Source: Leucothrix pacifica (GTDB lineage: Bacteria; Pseudomonadota; Gammaproteobacteria; Thiotrichales; Thiotrichaceae). Taken from it: a stretch of DNA of 44,363 nt. Where the stretch lies: contig NZ_QGKM01000012.1 of assembly GCF_003172875.1 (NCBI RefSeq), forward strand, positions 1 to 44,363, given 5' to 3'. The position numbers and the translations under genes are program-made. The first letter of the stretch is position 1. The number at the start of each line of letters is the position of its first letter. Shown in pieces: positions 4,703 to 16,387 of the stretch. Below the pieces are notes generated by a model, which saw only the letters and a list, made by a program, of their open reading frames with translations, did not search any database and was not told the origin of the DNA.

Positions 4703-5191
4703 ATGACCGAAGATAAGCCAAGAAAAACGCTCACACTAAAAAGAAAACCAAAGGCTAAGGCCGCTGAAGCGAGTCATTCCGAAGAGATTAATGATGACGT
4801 GACAGAGTCAGTCAGAGGTCGCAAGCGCGTGATAAAAATGCAGTCTGCGGCACAGAAAAAGGCGATTAAAGACAGTAAATTATCTCCGTCTGAGCGTCAG
4901 TCACGTGAGCTCAAGCGTTTGCTTGCTGAGACATTTTCAGTATGGCGTCGCCGCCGACCATTGGCGCGTGGTATTGATGAGCAGATTGCTGCCTTTATAG
5001 AAACCCAGGGCGTTGAGATTAGTAAGCGCGCGGTAAAAAAACTACTGCACCGTCATACACATCACAAAAGTTACTTACAGAATGTAGCGCGTGGTGGTGT
5101 GCGTTTTAAGTTGGATGGCACTGAAGACGGTGAGATTCTGCCGGAAGAGCGTGATCATGCCAGACGCGCCATGGAATCACTGGAGTCTTGA
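4703..5191 (+). CDS. ProQ/FinO family RNA chaperone
   Basis: A small basic protein (162 residues) with a ProQ/FinO domain that binds structured RNA such as terminator stems of sRNAs and mRNA 3' ends. The first 60 residues are lysine/arginine-rich and probably disordered (TLKRKPKAKA, RGRKRVIKMQ). The domain follows at about 62-145: RELKRLLAETF, then WRRRRPLARGI, and HTHHKSYLQNV with the basic patch expected for RNA binding. I place the start at ATG 4703, preceded by a weak CAGGG, rather than at the TTG three codons earlier. It lacks the C-terminal Tudor-like domain of E. coli ProQ and is closer to the minimal FinO-domain proteins. The next gene starts inside its stop codon, so the two are translationally linked. 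Given the possible sRNA cluster near 15 kb, it is a natural candidate partner (inference). Confidence 0.88.
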   Translation: MTEDKPRKTLTLKRKPKAKAAEASHSEEINDDVTESVRGRKRVIKMQSAAQKKAIKDSKLSPSERQSRELKRLLAETFSVWRRRRPLARGIDEQIAAFIETQGVEISKRAVKKLLHRHTHHKSYLQNVARGGVRFKLDGTEDGEILPEERDHARRAMESLES

Positions 5192-13603: not shown

Positions 13604-14536
13604 TTAGTGTCCTGCTTCACCCATAATCCATTCCACAAACGTTTCGGTGGTTTCAATGTTGTGCCCGTGCTTATGCTTATCCATCACTAGATGGTAGCTG
13701 TAATCCAGTGGAAGCTCTAAGTCAAAGGGTGCGATTAATCGTCCATCATCAATGTCTTTAGATGCCAGTTGGTCGATGGTTAGTACAACACCGTGCCCGG
13801 CAACTGCTGCCTCTAATGCTAGTGACACATGATTAAACCGAGAGCCACGTGTTGTATCTACTTCAGTCACCCCTGCAGCCGATAACCAGGAATCCCAGTC
13901 CTGCTGACCGCCGTGTAAGGTGTCATCATGAATCAATGTGTAATGACGCAGATTGTCCGGATTGTTTAAAGGAAATTCACCATTTAACAGTGTTGGGCTA
14001 CACAGCGGTTTGACACCAACATCGAATAGTTTGGTGGCATCACAATCCGGGTAATTCCCTTTACCAAAACGGATAGACACATCTGTACCATCACGTCCGT
14101 GTTTAGCTCCCTTGTAGGATTCCAGATAATCCGAACTTGCCAGAATGCGAAGGTCTATGTCCGGAAACATCTCGGTAAACTGATTCATTCTGGGAATAAA
14201 CCACTTAGATGCAAATGAGGGAGCCATGCCGACCGTTAATTGGCGACGGTTGGTACGTTGGCGTATTTCTGCAACAGCATCCGCCAGTGTTGAGAATCCC
14301 TGACTTAACTTCGGGTAGCAGTGTAAGGCGACTTCTGTCAGTTCCAGCCCTTGGTTTCCCCTAATGAATAGGGTCACGTCTAAGTACTCTTCCAGTACTT
14401 TGATATGCCGACTTACTGCGGCGGGGGTAACAAATAATTCAGCGGCTGCTTTGGTAAGATTTAAGTGGCGTGCAGCAACTTCGAATGCTTTTAATGCGTT
14501 TAGCGGTGGTAGTGGTGCTTTACTTTTGTAAGTCAT
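13604..14536 (-). CDS. LysR-family regulator, GcvA-like
   Basis: A 310-residue LysR-type transcription factor. The N-terminal winged HTH reads LPPLNALKAFEVAARHLNLT, KAAAELFVTPAAVSRHIKVL and EEYLDVTLFIRGNQGLELT. This is the GcvA/AmpR-like subgroup, in which LNALKAFEVAAR opens the protein. The periplasmic-binding-protein-like effector domain occupies about residues 95-300. The ATG is at 14536. The gene faces the 1-kb non-coding region on its upstream side, and LysR proteins commonly control a divergent neighbour, so the small-RNA candidates there are possible targets (inference). In E. coli GcvA regulates the small RNA gcvB, a loose precedent. No gcv genes are present. Confidence 0.88.
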   Translation of the reverse strand: MTYKSKAPLPPLNALKAFEVAARHLNLTKAAAELFVTPAAVSRHIKVLEEYLDVTLFIRGNQGLELTEVALHCYPKLSQGFSTLADAVAEIRQRTNRRQLTVGMAPSFASKWFIPRMNQFTEMFPDIDLRILASSDYLESYKGAKHGRDGTDVSIRFGKGNYPDCDATKLFDVGVKPLCSPTLLNGEFPLNNPDNLRHYTLIHDDTLHGGQQDWDSWLSAAGVTEVDTTRGSRFNHVSLALEAAVAGHGVVLTIDQLASKDIDDGRLIAPFDLELPLDYSYHLVMDKHKHGHNIETTETFVEWIMGEAGH

Positions 14537-14689
14537 AAAGAGACAACTATTATGTTTTTTGCGTCTGTTAACAATCTGAAGACGTGTAAGATGTTGTGGT
14601 GCTAATCTATTCTAAGTAACTGAATAATATATGATTTAGCGTGATGTTAACGATTTATGGTACTGGCATTGAGTTTTTGTCTATTGAGT

Positions 14690-14800
14690 CTGTAAGGTCT
14701 GGGGGCTATCTTAGAGTCGTAAGATGATTTCCTCCTCCTTTACCAAGAGTGGTGCAAGACCTACCAGTTAGAGTCAGGCACTGCTCTTGGACTTCTTACT
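14690..14800 (+). ncRNA. Candidate small RNA A with TCCTCCTCC motif
   Basis: Two stem-loops flank a C/U-rich single-stranded segment. ATCTTA (14708-14713) pairs with TAAGAT (14720-14725); then TTTCCTCCTCCT (14728-14739); then a 13-bp stem, CCAAGAGTGGTGC (14743-14755) with GCACTGCTCTTGG (14778-14790), containing two G-U pairs. It shares CTGTAAG-TCTG and GTAAG-TGATTTC with element B. There is no open reading frame and no clear promoter; no T run directly follows the second stem. Boundaries are approximate. Confidence 0.35.
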
Positions 14801-14925
14801 ATTTTCTGAGTATATCACCCGAATACGCCCTTTCTGAATATTTTCACAAAATAATATTGTCTATTAAGTGGGCATTAATCATGATCCTGTATTATTAGCC
14901 ACAGAGTATCAGTCAAAGACAAGCC

Positions 14926-14954
14926 TTGTGCGGACATTCAGATAGAGTTAACTA
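14926..14954 (+). promoter_or_regulatory. Candidate promoter of small RNA B
   Basis: TTGTGC (14926-14931), a 17-bp spacer and TAACTA (14949-14954). This is a moderate match to sigma-70; a start at about 14961 would give a transcript of about 120 nt ending at the terminator near 15083. Confidence 0.35.
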
Positions 14955-14960
14955 GCAGTA

Positions 14961-15084
14961 CAGCTCTGTAAGTCTGACCAGTCTAAGATTGCTACTCTCG
15001 ATCTCATGTAAGTGATTTCTCCTCCTCCTCGACCATGGGGTATGTAGACGGTATGTTAGTCTACAAGCCCCCTCTGGTTTTTTC
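14961..15084 (+). ncRNA. Candidate small RNA B with TCCTCCTCC motif and intrinsic terminator
   Basis: This is the best-defined of the related elements. After a promoter-like sequence comes CTGTAAGTCTG (14966-14976), GTAAGTGATTTC (15008-15019), the C/U-rich TCCTCCTCCTC (15020-15030), and directly a strong terminator hairpin. In the hairpin CCA, GGGG and GTAGAC (15033-15049) pair with GTCTAC, CCCC and TGG (15059-15077), followed by TTTTTT at 15078-15083. The C/U-rich core is complementary to Shine-Dalgarno sequences, so it could base-pair with ribosome binding sites, as C-rich sRNAs do in other Proteobacteria. No protein frame of note. Confidence 0.5.
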
Positions 15085-15197
15085 TTGTGCTGGTAGAGGG
15101 AGGTATTGAGCTGAAATGGGTAGCGGTAGGGATTGAGTAGTTATAGTGTAGTGGGCCAGAAACAGAAAACCCAACTACTGCGAAACAATAATTGGGT

Positions 15198-15300
15198 TAT
15201 CTTTTTGCGCGTAAGATAGTTTCCTAATCCTCAACCGTAAGATACAAAACCAAGCCACTTAGTTAGGCATCTACTTTGGCGCTTCCTCATCTCCTCATGA
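15198..15300 (+). ncRNA. Candidate degenerate element C of the same family
   Basis: TATCTT (15198-15203) pairs with AAGATA (15213-15218), then GTAAGATAGTTTCCTAATCC (15211-15230), matching elements A and B with changes in the C/U-rich core. Another C/U-rich stretch (CTTCCTCATCTCCTCATG, 15282-15299) follows. No terminator is visible. Just upstream AACCCAA/TTGGGTT (15168-15174 and 15192-15198) plus a T-rich run could end an earlier transcript. Confidence 0.25.
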
Positions 15301-15559
15301 TTCGGTTTGCAGAGCGTATATCTCTACAGTGGTGTAAATTCTAGTTCCCTTTACCTAATCCGGCAACGATTAATTCGAAAAAAATAATCAATTTCAAGTT
15401 ATAATTCGTTAATATAGGGTTATTAGTTTTATTATTTATTCTTACGCTAGGATCGCAGTTGAGTTTTGCTAAAAACATAGTTAAGTTTTATTAAATGTTG
15501 CAGTGCGTCATAGATATTAGTGCAAATGGCTCACAGTTGGTGTATTGAGTTGGCAGGAC

Positions 15560-16387
15560 TTATTTGAAGCCCATTTCCTGAAACACGGTCAATGCAATGT
15601 CTACGCGATCCGTCACGATGCCATCGGCACCGGCCTCAAGTAGTCGTTTAATGTCATCAGATGTATTGATCGTCCAGTAGTGGATAGGTAAGCTGGATCT
15701 TGCTGCGAAATTAACAAAACGCTTTGAGCTAAGGTTTAGCCAACCAAACTGAGGTGGTATTTGTAGGGCAGCACATTTTGCATCACTGGCCTTAATGGGT
15801 ATCTTGCTGAGTGCATAAAACTGACTCACTTCCTTTGGTGAGGCGGCGGTCGGGATTTCCGGAGCAATGTTTCTGAAATGATCGATTACCGTTTGATGAA
15901 AGCTACCAACTAATACCCGGTTTTCGGCACTTGCCTTGCTTATCGAGTCCACCAGCAGCTCTGCGGCAACTGGGTTTTTATCTTTGATGTCGATATTGAT
16001 GCGAATATCCGGATACGCTTCAAACAACTCTCCAAGGGTTGGGAGTCTTATGTATCGGCCTCTGAATGCCTCACCATCCTCCGTTTTAAAATGATAAGCA
16101 GCATCAAAGTGTTTAAGTTGGATAAGGGTGTGGTTCGTGATCTTGCCAAAGCCGTTAGTGACGCGTTCAAGTGTTTCATCATGAAAGACCAGAATTGCTT
16201 TGTCCCGACTTAACCGAATGTCGACCTCCAACACGTCTGCCTGTGACTGGTGGGCAATATCAAATGCATCAAAGGTGTTTTCCGGACCTAAAATCCGGCT
16301 CCCACGATGAGCCATTAGTAAGGGTTTTTTATTATTTTTCAGATAGTCGTGGGGTGATGTCTGATCGTTTTGATTAAGTGAGTCCAT
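15560..16387 (-). CDS. Glycerophosphodiester phosphodiesterase
   Basis: A 275-residue GDPD-family TIM-barrel enzyme splitting glycerophosphodiesters into glycerol-3-phosphate and an alcohol. Motifs in order are LLMAHRGSRILGPENT (catalytic HRG and ENT), LEVDIRLSRD (metal ligands), LVFHDETLERVTNG (second catalytic His), INIDIKD, and the C-terminal YWTINTSDDIKRLLEAGADG with GIVTDRVD. No signal peptide is present, so it is cytosolic like UgpQ rather than periplasmic like GlpQ. Its ATG at 16387 lies 4 nt after the stop of the lipase gene and lacks its own strong Shine-Dalgarno, so it is probably translated by coupling. Confidence 0.93.
   Translation of the reverse strand: MDSLNQNDQTSPHDYLKNNKKPLLMAHRGSRILGPENTFDAFDIAHQSQADVLEVDIRLSRDKAILVFHDETLERVTNGFGKITNHTLIQLKHFDAAYHFKTEDGEAFRGRYIRLPTLGELFEAYPDIRINIDIKDKNPVAAELLVDSISKASAENRVLVGSFHQTVIDHFRNIAPEIPTAASPKEVSQFYALSKIPIKASDAKCAALQIPPQFGWLNLSSKRFVNFAARSSLPIHYWTINTSDDIKRLLEAGADGIVTDRVDIALTVFQEMGFK

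Follow-up and report, generated by a model that had tools for sequence, protein, structure and literature searches.

A dispersed family of putative anti-Shine-Dalgarno sibling small RNAs in the genus Leucothrix

Upstream of a divergent LysR-type gene in Leucothrix pacifica, three similar C/U-rich elements follow one another on the plus strand of a 44,363-nt stretch of DNA, which was analysed as a whole and is referred to here as the window. The question raised by this locus is whether the elements encode small RNAs (sRNAs), and what such RNAs might do. The first-pass annotation had proposed a family of C/U-rich sRNAs arranged as tandem siblings, with a core complementary to Shine-Dalgarno (SD) sequences, and this proposal is supported by covariation in the stem, by flanks that drift, and by pairing of the core with ribosome-binding sites (RBSs). 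We consider it highly probable that the elements belong to trans-acting sibling sRNAs of Leucothrix that repress nutrient uptake by anti-SD pairing, with transcription and start site deduced from the sequence. The copies in the window are worn ones, and belong to a family that is dispersed and spans the genus.

All three elements lie where they had been placed, and were found in the sequence, as direct repeats, and by a covariance model (R1, see below) that was not trained on them. Copy A (14718..14798, plus strand) has an intact seed (14718-14739), with the same letters as in the canonical copies found elsewhere, followed by a hairpin (14743-14790) and a weak terminator with no clean T run. 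It was matched by R1 with 42.9 bits (E 2.8e-7 in a search of the whole window), and its fold has a free energy of -27.8 kcal/mol (z -3.55). Its promoter (14684..14712, plus strand) consists of a -35 box TTGAGT (14684-14689), a spacer of 17 nt and a -10 box TATCTT (14707-14712), and is shifted by one base relative to the TTG/TANTAT footprint of 17 canonical copies. Copy B (15007..15085, plus strand) has the CCTCCTCC core, a hairpin at about 15031-15079 and a T6 terminator; it scored 35.5 bits against R1 (E 1e-5, whole window) with a fold of -24.7 kcal/mol (z -3.06). The stems previously described 3' of the core in A and B are real by repeat search and folding, and the run of six T after the stem of B is seen as well, though a simple consensus scan listed neither a plus-strand promoter nor a plus-strand terminator at the A-C locus. 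The canonical promoter is unrecognisable before B, with the hexamers missing from their fixed places. Copy C (15210..15287, plus strand), noted earlier as a degenerate third copy, was matched by R1 (23.4 bits, E 0.0035) with many stem positions unpaired. It retains the GCCACTT loop letters, but neither the T run nor the CCTCCTCC core is left and many stem pairs are lost; a stable fold was not found (z 0.12). Besides A, B and C no further match to R1 was obtained in the whole window up to E 10. In short, A has a seed and a promoter with a weak terminator, B has a good terminator with an unrecognisable promoter and is perhaps transcribed by read-through from A, and C is dead. Three canonical copies of the same genome sit outside the window (contigs C1, C59 and C126), and the window set is thus the worn part of the family. 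Between B and C, a hairpin (15168..15198) is terminator-like on the minus strand, and a similar one is also found 3' of copy B in a relative (G001).

R1 contains a single 22-pair hairpin and was built from 12 well-kept copies, all from outside the window. Seven of the first 19 copies were left out, namely six from LysR loci (copies A and B of the window included) and L004, which was misaligned. RNAalifold had returned no structure for a first MAFFT alignment of the 19 copies, which we attribute to the misaligned worn copies. With R1, 25 copies were found in seven of seven Leucothrix genomes, one to six in each, the genome with 69% completeness (G004) having one. Out of 35 matches listed, this count excludes copy C, a phage match, seven antisense matches of the palindromic stem, and L056:7829-7890 in G003, a marginal match (E 0.01) that is possibly an extra degenerate copy between A and B. 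A further copy in G005 is truncated by the contig end. In L. arctica a tandem array of five copies in 1.7 kb (L054:6028-7683) has urease-operon genes on its upstream side and is followed by a transhydrogenase-like gene.

Searches with R1 beyond the genus were run with a stricter filter, at which weak matches are lost. None of 56 other genomes of the family was matched, the order-level search covered 63 genomes, apparently the same set as the family search, and among 369 genomes sampled from the class the own genome was the sole match. A Blast search with 14670-15330 against 57 genomes (own included) gave matches in seven, all Leucothrix, and in none of the 50 genomes outside the genus at E 0.001; a stretch of 22-29 bases from the seed region of copy A was present in each of the seven. 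An exact 20-base pattern found eight stretches in a contig collection that may omit the window's own records: six from Leucothrix (one of them L. arctica), one from an uncultured Thiotrichaceae and one from a generic proteobacterium. With Rfam 15 at gathering thresholds the whole window yielded tRNAs only and no sRNA match, and permissive scans gave chance matches only (14540-15560 with E up to 10, four loci with E up to 5). The family was not met in the literature searched, where no small-RNA paper was found for the genus Leucothrix. Several homologous copies with their own promoters and intrinsic terminators, the hallmark of sibling sRNAs, were found. Judged by sequence this is a real family of predicted anti-SD sibling sRNAs, which adds to Leucothrix an sRNA family with no Rfam 15 match.

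A canonical copy comprises about 83 nt, counted from the deduced transcript start, with a 5' seed CGUAAGAUGAUUUCCUCCUCCU of about 22 nt and then one terminator hairpin. Each of the first 22 positions is invariant or has at most one deviating sequence among 17 canonical copies (the 25 minus seven LysR-locus copies and one duplicate). The CCTCCTCC core is kept in 24 of the 25 copies and TAAGATGATTTCCTCCTCC in 20, and a run of at least five T is present in 19 and absent from six, A among these. Eleven of the 25 copies were folded, and in all eleven the 5' segment was unpaired and followed by one hairpin; a fold of A that begins at 14685 pairs the core with upstream G's, so the unpaired seed rests on the start position adopted here. 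The loop letters GCCACTT are kept by 16 of the 25 copies although the stem varies.

Stem pairing is maintained by compensatory change. In the alignment fitted to R1 (23 distinct rows), 18 of the 22 stem pairs change on both sides, and neither the share of paired cells (86.9% vs 73.3% when shuffled) nor the covariation (0.460 vs 0.222) was reached by any of 500 shuffles. When the stem partners were slid by 1-3 columns in this alignment, pairing fell from 86.9% to 38-53%. With 12 copies aligned without the model, 12 of the 22 pairs change on both sides (reached by 1 of 500 shuffles) and covariation was 0.355 vs 0.203 (0 of 500). Further pair types were not above chance in the unfitted alignment (reached by 341 of 500 shuffles) and mildly above it in the fitted one (17 of 500). 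Positional orthologues are 79-100% identical over the first 24 nt, and their flanks (-200..-81 and downstream) mostly show identity at the shuffled level, the largest exceptions coming from one pair (0.65/0.62 vs 0.52/0.51). The search for compensatory changes that the first-pass annotation had suggested thus finds core and stem kept with compensation in surroundings of roughly random identity.

An ungapped alignment of the 17 canonical copies has TANTAT at -12..-7 and TTG at -35..-33. Further upstream the majority sequence reads TTTAG-N5-CTAAA at -72..-58 (T-N11-A at -71/-59), some columns being held by only 9 of the 17 copies, and a second, weaker T-N11-A extends from -49 to -37. A T-N11-A near -65 is the textbook LysR-type site, and the canonical copies are preceded by what reads as a sigma70-like promoter with a LysR-type T-N11-A footprint. 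Before copy A this footprint is poor (7 mismatches in 17 at best), before copy B it has no fewer than six mismatches and lies away from the fixed place, and upstream of the LysR gene (13604..14536) itself no good footprint box was found. Several canonical copies also have, at about -35 to -19 and overlapping the -35 box, an inverted repeat resembling TTG(A/T)TGC-N3-GCAGCAA, which could be a second operator; a similar stretch stands before the DUF1127 gene described below.

Two motifs that had been assigned to the RNA fall in this promoter region. CTGTAAG-TCTG, taken earlier for a common element, lies 5' of the deduced RNA start (within the promoter spacer in the case of A); by eye it was not seen in the other copies. 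The ATCTT/AAGAT stem proposed before the core of A is made up of the -10 box TATCTT (14707-14712) and the first bases of the RNA; canonical copies carry letters such as TAATATCTAACCC there, without such a stem, which is most likely promoter rather than RNA. When 14685-14800 is folded, the ATCTT/AAGAT stem can form, with the core paired, if the transcript of A started further upstream.

The footprint was also searched for in the seven genomes as a 17-letter pattern with at most two mismatches, with the reversed pattern as a control. Of 24 matches, 14 precede sRNA copies, eight are scattered, and the other two stand upstream of a single gene, once in G000 and once in G003; the reversed pattern gave eight matches. 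The gene behind the pattern in G000 and G003 encodes a DUF1127 protein (PF06568, E 8.9e-12 and 5.3e-11). Such a gene occurs in six of the seven genomes, and in all six the pattern precedes it with 1, 2, 3, 3, 3 and 3 mismatches, G001 and G004 having identical letters there and hence not being independent; a second DUF1127 copy in G003 has five mismatches. Among 1610 sampled gene upstreams (G003 and G006) a single one reaches three mismatches, and this is the DUF1127 gene of G006 itself. In G002, sRNA copies are present and no DUF1127 gene was found at E 1e-5, and R1 detected no sRNA copy in the DUF1127 loci of G000 and G003 (L247 and L255). The DUF1127 protein may be an RNA-handling partner of the sRNAs. 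A gene for a Crp/Fnr-type regulator adjoins the DUF1127 gene in G000 and G003 (L247:1501-1952, L255:1097-1600; other DUF1127 loci L262-L268).

Candidate targets were sought through the seed. Its complement GGAGGAAATCAT, with one mismatch, matches RBSs of genes for solute-binding proteins, among them one of the TTT type that was hit in G000 as well as in G003; many matches also fall inside genes, and 40 stretches from these two genomes, a subset of the matches, were read. In G003, 1003 genes from 1.2 Mb were used, of which 77 encode exported-like proteins of 250-460 aa that were scanned with Pfam, 22 of them being solute-binding. Predicted seed pairing for these 22 Pfam-verified proteins was stronger than for the rest (mean -12.3 vs -9.36 kcal/mol, p 8e-4), in a test that is exploratory since the solute-binding class was picked after earlier target results had been inspected, one of the 22 (L191:18878) having already been met before. 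As low a mean was obtained in 0 of 2000 SD-matched draws and 0 of 60 full seed shuffles, and core-kept shuffles (CCUCC fixed, first 11 bases shuffled) equalled the signal in 6 of 100 cases by mean and 21 of 100 by rank. Two proteins were not counted among the 22. One, L161:4356, is a regulator of the LacI type; the other, L196:16379, is TctC-like and has the best score of all 77, but its E of 3.3e-6 is above the limit of 1e-6, and adding it widens the contrast.

In G006 (658 genes) the protein set and the test were fixed beforehand, the length limits of 230-470 aa were not. Ten solute-binding proteins identified by homology had -12.7 vs -9.07 kcal/mol (p 0.002), with 9 of 2000 SD-matched draws, 0 of 60 full shuffles and 27 of 60 core-kept shuffles equalling the signal; the two genes with the top scores resemble binding proteins but are absent from the homology set. 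Shine-Dalgarno pairing as such is also somewhat stronger for genes of solute-binding proteins (p 0.02 in G003, 0.009 in G006). By the core-kept shuffles, the signal is carried by the core, which may suffice to explain it. Over all genes the seed did no better than core-kept controls, and the 165 exported-like genes as a whole scored no better than the rest. Proteins for amino acids, phosphate-like and phosphonate binding proteins, Peripla_BP_2 proteins and one SBP_bac_1 protein were about or below average in G003. Target prediction with the core, as the first-pass annotation had recommended, thus leads to the RBSs of a coherent gene class, and by predicted pairing the best candidates are periplasmic solute-binding proteins, mainly of the TRAP (DctP, TAXI), TTT, sugar and Peripla_BP_6 types.

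These results bear on the possibility that the RNA acts by titration, the core then binding, instead of mRNAs, a protein or some other RNA, such as SD-bearing sRNAs or a ribosomal or CsrA-like partner. The number of copies, the conserved loop GCCACTT (16 of 25) and a core that resembles the 3' end of 16S rRNA would suit such a role, but the RBSs of solute-binding proteins outscore those of SD-matched genes in two genomes, and a linear seed followed by an intrinsic terminator is the layout of Hfq-type sRNAs. We regard titration as improbable, though it is the best of the alternatives.

The surroundings of the copies speak to another reading, in which each element is a cis-acting leader that attenuates the gene downstream. 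The canonical copies do end in a terminator, and four genomes have a copy followed, on its own strand, by a transhydrogenase-like gene (the G000 protein matches PF07992 and NCBIfam Sth). At 16 loci, however, the downstream gene is on the same strand in eight and on the opposite strand in eight, a count in which small overlapping ORFs were ignored at three loci, L060 is represented by a 115-aa ORF, and the loci are not independent. The downstream genes moreover come from several families, and the conserved seed has no pairing partner in the stem, making cis-acting leaders very unlikely.

A dispersed repeat of the MITE or REP type that happens to carry a terminator and has no regulatory role would account for the presence of several copies in a genome, for tandem runs like the five in 1.7 kb of L. 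arctica, for decayed copies and for a copy on a phage contig. Yet there are only 1 to 6 copies per genome, and outside promoter and terminator their flanks have little in common; the promoter itself is conserved and also stands before a protein gene; and the stem changes are compensatory and the seed letters fixed. This reading is about as unlikely as the previous one, if anything slightly more so. That the product is a short leaderless peptide (MISSSS...) is scarcely credible, for although the ATG in GATGATTTCC is kept by 21 of the 25 copies, the peptide would vary in sequence and in length from 9 to at least 45 residues, copy B of the window and G002_C5 have lost the start ATGATT, a 6-nt leader is too short for an RBS, and third codon positions in the seed are as invariant as the others.

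Trans-acting sibling sRNAs thus being the preferred reading, the neighbouring regulator and possible protein partners come into view. The LysR-type gene (13604..14536, minus strand), divergent to copy A, is of the GcvA subfamily; its protein scores 307.4 vs the NCBIfam GcvA cut-off of 288, and its sole PDB relative at E 1e-20 or better is 8y6u, a GcvA. A homologous LysR gene adjoins this locus in four genomes. As a candidate activator it is a plausible regulator of the copies, and the protein may act on the sRNA family. A ProQ-domain protein, which the first-pass annotation had named as a possible partner, is encoded in the window (4904-5179) and a second ProQ-domain match lies on contig C63, but Hfq is encoded in the own genome as well.

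In the mechanism that we propose, a canonical copy would be transcribed from its own sigma70-type promoter into an RNA of about 83 nt, with a seed that is complementary to an SD sequence, an A-rich spacer and the first two bases (AU) of a start codon. Given this complementarity, the RNA most likely binds RBSs, with the help of Hfq, and blocks translation; the proteins affected would be periplasmic solute-binding proteins. A LysR-type activator, possibly the GcvA-like protein beside A, would switch on both the sRNAs and the DUF1127 gene, and the DUF1127 protein would act as RNA-handling partner.

Several known systems are arranged in a comparable way. According to excerpts of two papers, AbcR1 and AbcR2 of Rhizobiales are tandem siblings whose neighbour is the LysR gene lsrB/vtlR; by means of anti-SD motifs such as CUCCUCCC they repress transporter mRNAs, with periplasmic components as the targets (PMC8844928, PMC7486931). 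The same excerpts state that the LysR protein drives one AbcR sibling (PMC8844928), that LsrB had no effect in S. meliloti 1021, and that the AbcR RNAs of that species have 121 and 114 nt with seeds in a loop and between stems (PMC7486931). The Leucothrix family is like AbcR/alpha-r15 in its tandem siblings by a LysR gene, its anti-SD seed and its transporter targets, here predicted. Unlike the alphaproteobacterial AbcR, it has an 83-nt RNA with a linear 5' seed and one hairpin, is dispersed over the genome, and belongs to a gammaproteobacterium. A match to AbcR/alpha-r15 in sequence or structure was not seen, no Rfam family matching; alpha-r15 is, we assume, among the Rfam models.

In E. coli, as far as the portion consulted of PMC1557403 goes, gcvB is divergent from gcvA, is activated by GcvA, and encodes a 206-nt RNA that represses periplasmic binding proteins. 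A GcvA-type LysR gene divergent to an sRNA gene is likewise seen here, at the window locus only and not at the other copies. GcvB is a single gene. It differs from the present family in that no Rfam GcvB match was obtained and most Leucothrix copies lie away from a LysR gene. The AbcR, GcvB and LysR parallels are likenesses of arrangement, and on present evidence the family would work like AbcR or GcvB but the Rfam tests give no ground for filing it under either.

For the link to DUF1127 the closest parallel is found in Rhodobacter, where CcaF1, an RNA-binding DUF1127 protein, is involved in the maturation of the CcsR sRNAs transcribed together with it, DUF1127/sRNA pairs being frequent in Alphaproteobacteria (PMC10253847, in the sections available). 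CcsR1-4 (CIN1 locus, cuckoo RNA family) are described, in parts of PMC10253847 and PMC8307010, as products of one transcript from an RpoH promoter that is cut into an mRNA and sRNAs. In Leucothrix, too, a common promoter motif points to a possible tie between sibling sRNAs and a DUF1127 gene. Unlike in CcsR/CIN1, every canonical sRNA is preceded by a promoter of its own, and the DUF1127 gene lies elsewhere in the genome, the promoter design alone being in common; co-transcription with DUF1127 was not seen in L247 and L255, and the likeness to CcsR is one of description, not of aligned sequences. A link known from alphaproteobacterial CIN1 loci appears to recur in a gammaproteobacterium in a different form, through a common promoter instead of a common transcript, which opens to experiment the question of whether anti-SD sRNAs in general have DUF1127 proteins as partners. 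Sibling sRNAs are likewise described, in the portion of the literature at hand, from Neisseria, and the LhrC RNAs of Listeria are sibling sRNAs with C-rich anti-SD motifs; both were compared through the Rfam scan only.

A wider and tentative proposal, to which we give rather less than even chances, is a complete circuit of uptake control paralleling two alphaproteobacterial systems at once. In it a GcvA-type LysR protein would switch on up to six dispersed anti-SD siblings together with a DUF1127 RNA-binding partner of the same promoter design, the sRNAs would silence the binding proteins for organic acids and sugars, and a phage would have taken over the seed, joined to a terminator of its own, to tap into this network.

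The phage-borne seed lies on an IMG/VR contig of 12.4 kb (L270), where the exact 20-base seed is followed by a different hairpin and a T run (4880-4941). It sits between plus-strand ORFs ending at 4756 and starting at 5034, with a mechanically called minus-strand ORF overlapping; lysozyme-, terminase- and portal-like ORFs are recognised on the contig by eye. The canonical promoter was not seen before this seed. The terminase-like protein had no match in the seven genomes, in a search run without a positive control, and comparison of a canonical copy with phage and plasmid records, and of L270 with phage records, gave no credible DNA similarity. Weak scores were obtained for L269, L271 and L272, three further viral contigs in which 18-20 bases match; these were taken as chance, the match in L269 being antisense inside an ORF with no hairpin and T run in view. 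The phage-borne copy offers a handle on how phages enter host riboregulation. Shortly before the seed on L270 stands ATGCCTGCGATTTG, the same letters that are found 3' of the terminators of two copies in G003.
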